From an uncultured Alphaproteobacteria bacterium (GTDB lineage Bacteria; Pseudomonadota; Alphaproteobacteria; GCA-2731375), in assembly GCA_951812805.1 (NCBI GenBank), contig CATOSZ010000005.1, positions 434,001-498,000 on the forward strand: 64,000 nt of DNA, written 5' to 3'. The notes beneath the pieces were generated by a model. That model had not been told where the DNA came from. It saw only the letters and a program-made list of their open reading frames with translations, and did not search any database. Both the position numbers and the translations under genes were made by a program. Shown here piece after piece: positions 54,557 to 55,123 of this stretch. Numbering within the stretch: position 1 is the first letter of the stretch; the number at the start of each line of letters is the position of its first letter.

Positions 54557-55123
54557 TCACTGCAAGGTGGCGAGGATCTCGTCGGGTTCCGGGCGGCTGC
54601 GATAGTTGGGGCCCGAATGGCGCCGGCGGACGATGCCGTCGGCATCGATCACGATCAGTGCCGGATGGGCTATGCCGTAGCCGTAGCTGCCGGGACCGAA
54701 GCGCTCGTTGCGCAGACCGAAGGCGGAGATGATCTTCGAGTCGGGATCGGCCAGCAGGGCGAACTCGATATCCCGCCCCTCGGCGAAGCGGGCCATCGCT
54801 TTGGCACTGTCATAGGTGACGATGGCGACCTCGTAGCCGAGCGCCCGCGTCGCGTCCAGATGGTTCTGCCAGGCGACCGCCTCGCTCTTGCAGTAGGGTC
54901 ACCAGTCGAGGGAGCGGCTGAACAGCAGCAGCAACCCGCGCGTGCCCGTCAGTGTCTTGAAGCTGCGGGCCTCGCCGCGCTGGTCCGGGACCTCGAGGCT
55001 GTGCGGGATCGGCTTGCCGATCGCCGGCCCGAGATCCTGCGCCTGAGCGTCGAGCCCACGCCCGCCGAGCGCGAGTGCGAAGGTGATCGCCAGGTACAGA
55101 GCTGTTCGACGCGTGATCGACAT
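54557..55123 (-). CDS. Exported redoxin/AhpC-TSA-like protein with in-frame TGA, candidate selenoprotein
   Basis: Reading through one TGA (54899-54901) gives 188 codons of continuous, redoxin-like sequence. N-terminus MSITRRTALYLAITFALALG plus GRGLDAQA is a signal peptide, so the protein is periplasmic or membrane-attached. The peroxiredoxin-like core GTRGLLLLFSRSLDW is followed by [TGA]-PYCKSEAVAWQ, that is position 75 of a CxxC motif in which the first Cys is TGA: U-P-Y-C. Downstream EVAIVTYDSAKAM and HPALIVIDADGIVRRRH continue the thioredoxin fold to a normal stop at 54557. TGA is a normal stop elsewhere in this genome (many ATGA overlaps). A possible SECIS hairpin follows. Alternative: a disabled gene with a nonsense mutation. 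No sel genes are in the window. Confidence 0.75.
54866..54893 (-). promoter_or_regulatory. Candidate bacterial SECIS hairpin after the redoxin TGA
   Basis: Minus strand, beginning 5 nt after the TGA: lower stem CTGC/GCAG, a 7-nt by 1-nt internal loop, upper stem AGGC/GCCT and apical loop GGTC. The apical loop starts 20 nt past the TGA, within the spacing range known for bacterial SECIS elements, and begins with G as in the consensus. The stems are short, so this is suggestive only. Confidence 0.5.

Follow-up and report, generated by a model that had tools for sequence, protein, structure and literature searches.

The locus

The analysed window is a stretch of 64,000 nucleotides, in which a redoxin gene lies on the minus strand, a strand that the earlier note on this DNA had not given. 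Translation from 55123 to 54557 with TGA written as U gave MSITRRTALYLAITFALALGGRGLDAQAQD...LLLLFSRSLDW-U-PYCKSEAVAW...EILATLQ-stop. The sole internal stop of the frame was codon 75, a TGA at 54901..54899, which confirmed the claim of that note that a single TGA stands at the first Cys of a CxxC motif (DW-U-PYC) in a frame open on both sides. The terminal stop of the gene was also found to be TGA (54559..54557). Mechanical ORF calling cut the gene into pieces of 74 and 79 amino acids, and since standard ORF calling breaks the gene up, the enzyme is likely to be missed or mis-annotated in these genomes. There was no evident operon partner; judging by the ORFs themselves, the upstream same-strand neighbour is CPBP-type membrane protease-like, and the other neighbour, which is convergent, is enoyl-CoA hydratase-like. 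The features of the locus are as follows, the hairpin being numbered with the U of the UGA as +1.

54557..55123, minus strand: candidate selenoprotein gene for an AhpC/TSA-type redoxin of 188 residues with Sec75 (read-through translation, domain match, 15 further genes with TGA in this column)
55037..55123, minus strand: signal-peptide-like N-terminal segment, residues 1-29 (RR, then a hydrophobic core, and AQA before QD)
54590..55021, minus strand: redoxin / AhpC-TSA domain, residues 35-178 (PF00578 and PF08534 matches, AF2 model, Bcp/PrxQ fold matches)
54899..54901, minus strand: TGA codon predicted to be read as Sec, residue 75, first position of UxxC (translation and homologue column)
54890..54892, minus strand: codon of Cys78, second UxxC redox residue (invariant in 41 homologues; placed by the 5enu alignment on the PrxQ/Bcp peroxidatic Cys)
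54868..54885, minus strand: candidate bacterial SECIS hairpin, +17 to +34, GC-G-AGGC [GGUC] GCCU-G-GC (folding, comparison, whole-genome model match)
54875..54878, minus strand: apical tetraloop GGUC, +24 to +27 (invariant in its own clade)

Fold and N terminus of the redoxin

The read-through protein matched PF00578 (AhpC-TSA) over residues 35-167 (E=2.2e-24, 86.2 bits, cut-off 26), so that a single domain spans the TGA, as had been proposed from the amino acid pattern on its two sides. A weaker match to PF08534 was also obtained (E=7e-14, 52 bits). Structure prediction by AF2 on the single sequence reached a pLDDT of only 36.5, and a model built from a 41-sequence alignment, with a mean pLDDT of 89.6, was used instead. 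In this model residue 75 directly precedes the helix formed by residues 76-87. The best fold matches in the PDB were peroxiredoxins of the Bcp/PrxQ type (3hjp, 5epf).

The N terminus, MSITRRTALYLAITFALALGGRGLDAQAQ-D, carries an RR pair, a hydropathy peak at residues 8-19, and AQA before residue 30, and the AF2 pLDDT was about 50-55 over residues 1-30. This segment looks like a signal peptide, possibly one of the Tat type. The signal-like N terminus, together with the similar N termini of relatives, suggests that the protein may be exported.

The predicted redox pair

Together with PrxQ/Bcp proteins 3hjp, 5epf, and 5enu, the protein of the window shares one fold (TM-score on target 0.82-0.86) at about 22-24% identity, but the active site is TPGC in the former and WUPYC in the latter. 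In the canonical peroxiredoxin signature (PxxxTxxC) the peroxidatic Cys is preceded, at a distance of three residues, by a Thr; this Thr is absent here, Sec75 taking its position. In the sequence alignment with 5enu, Sec75 falls over Thr and Cys78 over the peroxidatic Cys of TPGC. Taken together, the AF2 model and this alignment suggest a Sec-Cys pair of the thioredoxin type on a peroxiredoxin scaffold, in which Sec75 and Cys78 would form a UxxC pair at the N-terminal end of the active-site helix in an AhpC/TSA fold. The enzyme would most likely act in the periplasm as a thiol- or selenol-dependent oxidoreductase, its substrate and reductant being a matter of prediction. Sec75 would attack a disulfide or peroxide and Cys78 would resolve the intermediate, and on balance this assignment of the two roles seems the probable one.

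Even with Sec insertion accepted, these data allow another interpretation of the chemistry, namely that the protein works as a true peroxidase, with Cys78 as the peroxidatic residue and Sec75 resolving through a selenenylsulfide. Both the position of Cys78 over the Cys of TPGC and the identity of the best fold matches as Bcp/PrxQ peroxidases fit such a scheme, and it is a quite plausible one. However, the redoxin lacks the TxxC/TxxU peroxiredoxin signature, CxxC and UxxC pairs are typical of thioredoxin-type dithiol chemistry, and peroxiredoxin-like proteins with UxxC have been termed thiol:disulfide oxidoreductases (PMC1088965, PMC13188914). An attacking Sec75 with Cys78 resolving is the assignment preferred here.

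Conservation of the TGA column

Homologues were sought at three ranks, in 385 genomes for the class, 398 for the phylum, and 15 for the order, with one collection scan in addition. The searches yielded 16 TGA-type genes (the gene of the window included) in 11 alphaproteobacterial genomes, and 25 Cys-type genes. Low-scoring matches from the phylum (L067-L072), which were PrxQ/Bcp-like (TPGC) or ambiguous, were excluded from the comparison. Column 75 was TGA or Cys in 41/41 homologues compared, with residues conserved on both sides, and the positions of W74, residue 75, and C78 were invariant over the 41 sequences when TGA was written as C in the alignment. In every TGA-type gene the TGA occupied exactly the same column, within the motifs DWUPYC, SWUPYC, DWUPHC, DWUPFC, AWUPTC, DWUTPC, and VWUPPC, while the Cys-type genes had WCPYC or WCPFC. 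The TGA-type relatives were conserved over their full length, at about 30-55% identity to the protein of the window. A search of plasmids returned no relative at or above 60% identity, the best being about 30%.

In a phylogenetic tree the gene of the window was placed within a group of 10 rows, all of them TGA-type (support 97/89). The Sec/Cys label changed four times over the whole tree, far below the number for shuffled labels. In three genomes the putatively exported UxxC redoxin occurs as a tandem pair (L040, L041, and L042, in G220, G386, and G309), where both copies carry TGA and have diverged from each other. A longer TGA-type form with VW-U-PPC (L024, L051, L052, L057) bears a C-terminal extension of ~200 residues with a YQACDD..C pattern.

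A hairpin downstream of the UGA

Behind the TGA a candidate SECIS hairpin with GU in its loop was identified, and it was accompanied by covariation among the relatives. In nine genes of the window's own clade, positions +18..+23 pair with +28..+33 (CCAGGC-GGUC-GCCUGG or near); in the copy of the window a single G/G mismatch at +19/+32 replaces the C-G of relatives, and its stem closes again below the mismatch. The 26-nt stretch of the window folded at -11.0 kcal/mol. When the 61 nt from the UGA were folded alone the segment was not unusually stable (z=+0.97), and the hairpin was evident only in the 26-nt stretch and by comparison. The more distant TGA-type genes use another stem, in which the register is longer by one base, for example GCAGCU-GGUCG-AGCUGC. 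The hairpin of the window has no equivalent of the bulged U in the SECIS of E. coli fdhF.

The mean folding energy of the hairpin was -10.4 kcal/mol in TGA genes vs -3.2 kcal/mol in Cys genes (p=1e-6), and GU at +25/+26 of the loop was present in 15/16 TGA genes vs 2/19 Cys genes. Within the own clade there was one compensatory change, from G-C to A-U at +21/+30, both substitutions being silent; the distant TGA group showed compensatory changes in three pairs. Pairing was lost when the hairpin partner was slid. In a shuffle control the own clade scored 47/500, which is not strong because the set is small and nearly identical, while the distant set gave a stronger result (5/500). Conservation of the hairpin in the own clade could be owed in part to the conserved peptide QAVAW.

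Over the same region a search of Rfam at E<=10 returned one chance match only, and none to a bacterial SECIS family. A model built from six distant TGA genes without the gene of the window (R2) was used for a scan of the 7.4-Mb genome, in which this UGA ranked first (23.8 bits, E=0.0065), a score that comes in part from the conserved UGA-Pro-x-Cys codons.

The selenocysteine machinery

The genome assembly is a draft of 7.4 Mb in 19 contigs and is 98.5% complete. A genome-wide search recovered the whole set of SelA, SelB, SelD, and tRNA-Sec on which a selenoprotein reading depends. On contig 17, SelA (572 bits, cut-off 268) has SelB (447 bits, cut-off 242) immediately after it. The tRNA-Sec is on contig 1 (70 bits, gathering 47); it measures 95 nt and has the anticodon TCA, and SelD (286 bits, cut-off 125) is 1.4 kb away from it. 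SelD forms the rear part of a fusion with an NADH-dehydrogenase-like FAD domain (L017 about 301-2400, G000:C1) and carries Cys (CGGCGAK); Ndh-SelD fusions with CxxC have been described (PMC2398784).

Presence of SelA was compared with gene type in the same genome searches. SelA scored over its cut-off in 10/11 genomes with the TGA type vs 0/10 with the Cys type (Fisher p=3e-5, not corrected for relatedness). The one exception, G004, has a TGA-type relative and no SelA match; its assembly is a 370-contig draft, 94% complete, and its sister genomes have SelA.

Decoding of the UGA

At the level of sequence, the evidence establishes the machinery, the conserved TGA, the conserved hairpin, and the fold. 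Together with the co-occurrence of SelA, the machinery, the TGA column, and the hairpin support the earlier note in its reading of the gene as a candidate selenoprotein, as do the first rank of the site under model R2, the all-TGA group in the tree, and a second TGA redoxin of this genome, and UGA75 is very probably decoded as Sec. Insertion would proceed through SelB and tRNA-Sec, guided by the hairpin 17-34 nt downstream, and the terminal UGA would act as a normal stop.

It could be argued instead that the gene is a pseudogene with a nonsense mutation at Cys75, or that TGA is a sequencing or assembly error for TGC or TGT, from each of which it is one base away; many relatives do have Cys, and the assembly is in draft. 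However, 15 further genes, spread over 10 other genomes, have TGA at this very position, with tandem pairs in three of the genomes, and the earlier note had already judged a chance nonsense mutation unlikely. The gene is free of other stops and frameshifts, and among the homologues the TGA is fixed in one column rather than stops being scattered. Moreover, the hairpin is specific to TGA genes and SelA accompanies them. Conservation, hairpin, and co-occurrence thus effectively exclude a pseudogene or an error, which is highly improbable. Just as improbable is that general read-through or a recoded genetic code gives the UGA a meaning other than Sec, such as Trp or Cys. Any read-through would explain the conserved downstream frame, but the column is otherwise Cys and always inside UxxC/CxxC, the gene itself ends at a UGA stop, the genome encodes the full Sec machinery with its tRNA-Sec, and UGA-type genes track SelA. 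Recoding was rejected on conservation, hairpin, and SelA co-occurrence.

A second UxxC redoxin

Model R1, which includes the window's own site, also picked a position at C1:919995 of the same genome, within a PF00578 protein of 163 residues with the motif FYRGHW-U-PYCRRQL. This second predicted selenoprotein, at G000:C1:919851-920339 (L085, L113), has no evident signal-like N terminus. When the GHW-U-PYC redoxin was searched against the class, TGA was present in 21/22 matches, itself included. The 20 loci of this type that were read all had W-U-P-[YF]-C, and most had a covarying hairpin resembling GCCGNC-AGUUG-GNCGGC. With the redoxin of the window, this brings the genome to at least two UxxC redoxin selenoproteins, as predicted from sequence. 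In three genomes (G311:C1:3250819, G388:C22:42082, and G222:C15:113087) only about 1-2 kb separate the GHW-U-PYC gene from selA, which links the predicted selenoprotein to the Sec machinery on the genome.

No formate dehydrogenase alpha subunit scored above the TIGR01553 cut-off in the genome, and the weak matches were all without a stop. It may be, as a tentative suggestion, that this lineage and its relatives keep the Sec pathway for a few UxxC redoxins (the putatively exported one and the GHW-U-PYC type) and not for formate dehydrogenase, that is, for thiol or peroxide defence.

Relation to known selenoproteins

UxxC redoxins are, as the earlier note had said, already known among bacterial selenoproteins, the PF00578 peroxiredoxin-like proteins having been described in 2005-2008. 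A selenoprotein from the Sargasso Sea had distant peroxiredoxin homology and a thioredoxin-like UXXC motif (PMC1088965), and 225 sequences of Prx-like 1 were reported in the GOS data (PMC2398784). A family table of 2026 lists a Prx-like thiol:disulfide oxidoreductase (PF00578, UxxC; PMC13188914 Table 1) and also a redoxin family selenoprotein (PF08534, UxxC; PMC13188914 Table 1), the latter being Prx-like 3 of GOS (PMC2398784).

The present protein shares with the PF00578 group (reference WP_010940744.1) the AhpC/TSA domain, Sec as the first residue of UxxC, widespread Cys homologues, and bacterial Sec machinery, a likeness drawn from defining features. It differs in that the present clade has a signal-peptide-like N terminus and occurs in Alphaproteobacteria. 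With the PF08534 redoxin selenoproteins it has UxxC and the redoxin fold in common, but it fits PF00578 better (86 vs 52 bits). The best NCBIfam match by E-value was the SelL-related redox protein NF040769, yet its 41.3 bits lie below the cut-off of 120. As UxxC selenoproteins of the PF00578 type have been known since 2005-2008, the redoxin is best regarded as an added, signal-bearing alphaproteobacterial clade and not as a new type of protein. The alphaproteobacterial branch has probably not been catalogued before, which is not to claim that such clades are unreported.

Data newer than the survey of 2006 have revealed broader Sec use. That survey listed one selenoprotein family, FdhA, for Alphaproteobacteria (PMC1794560). 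The present results suggest that Sec use in Alphaproteobacteria exceeds the FdhA-only picture of early surveys. They add a signal-bearing selenoprotein clade that has natural Sec/Cys counterparts as well as tandem Sec copies, and with these it can be asked what Sec buys an exported redoxin.
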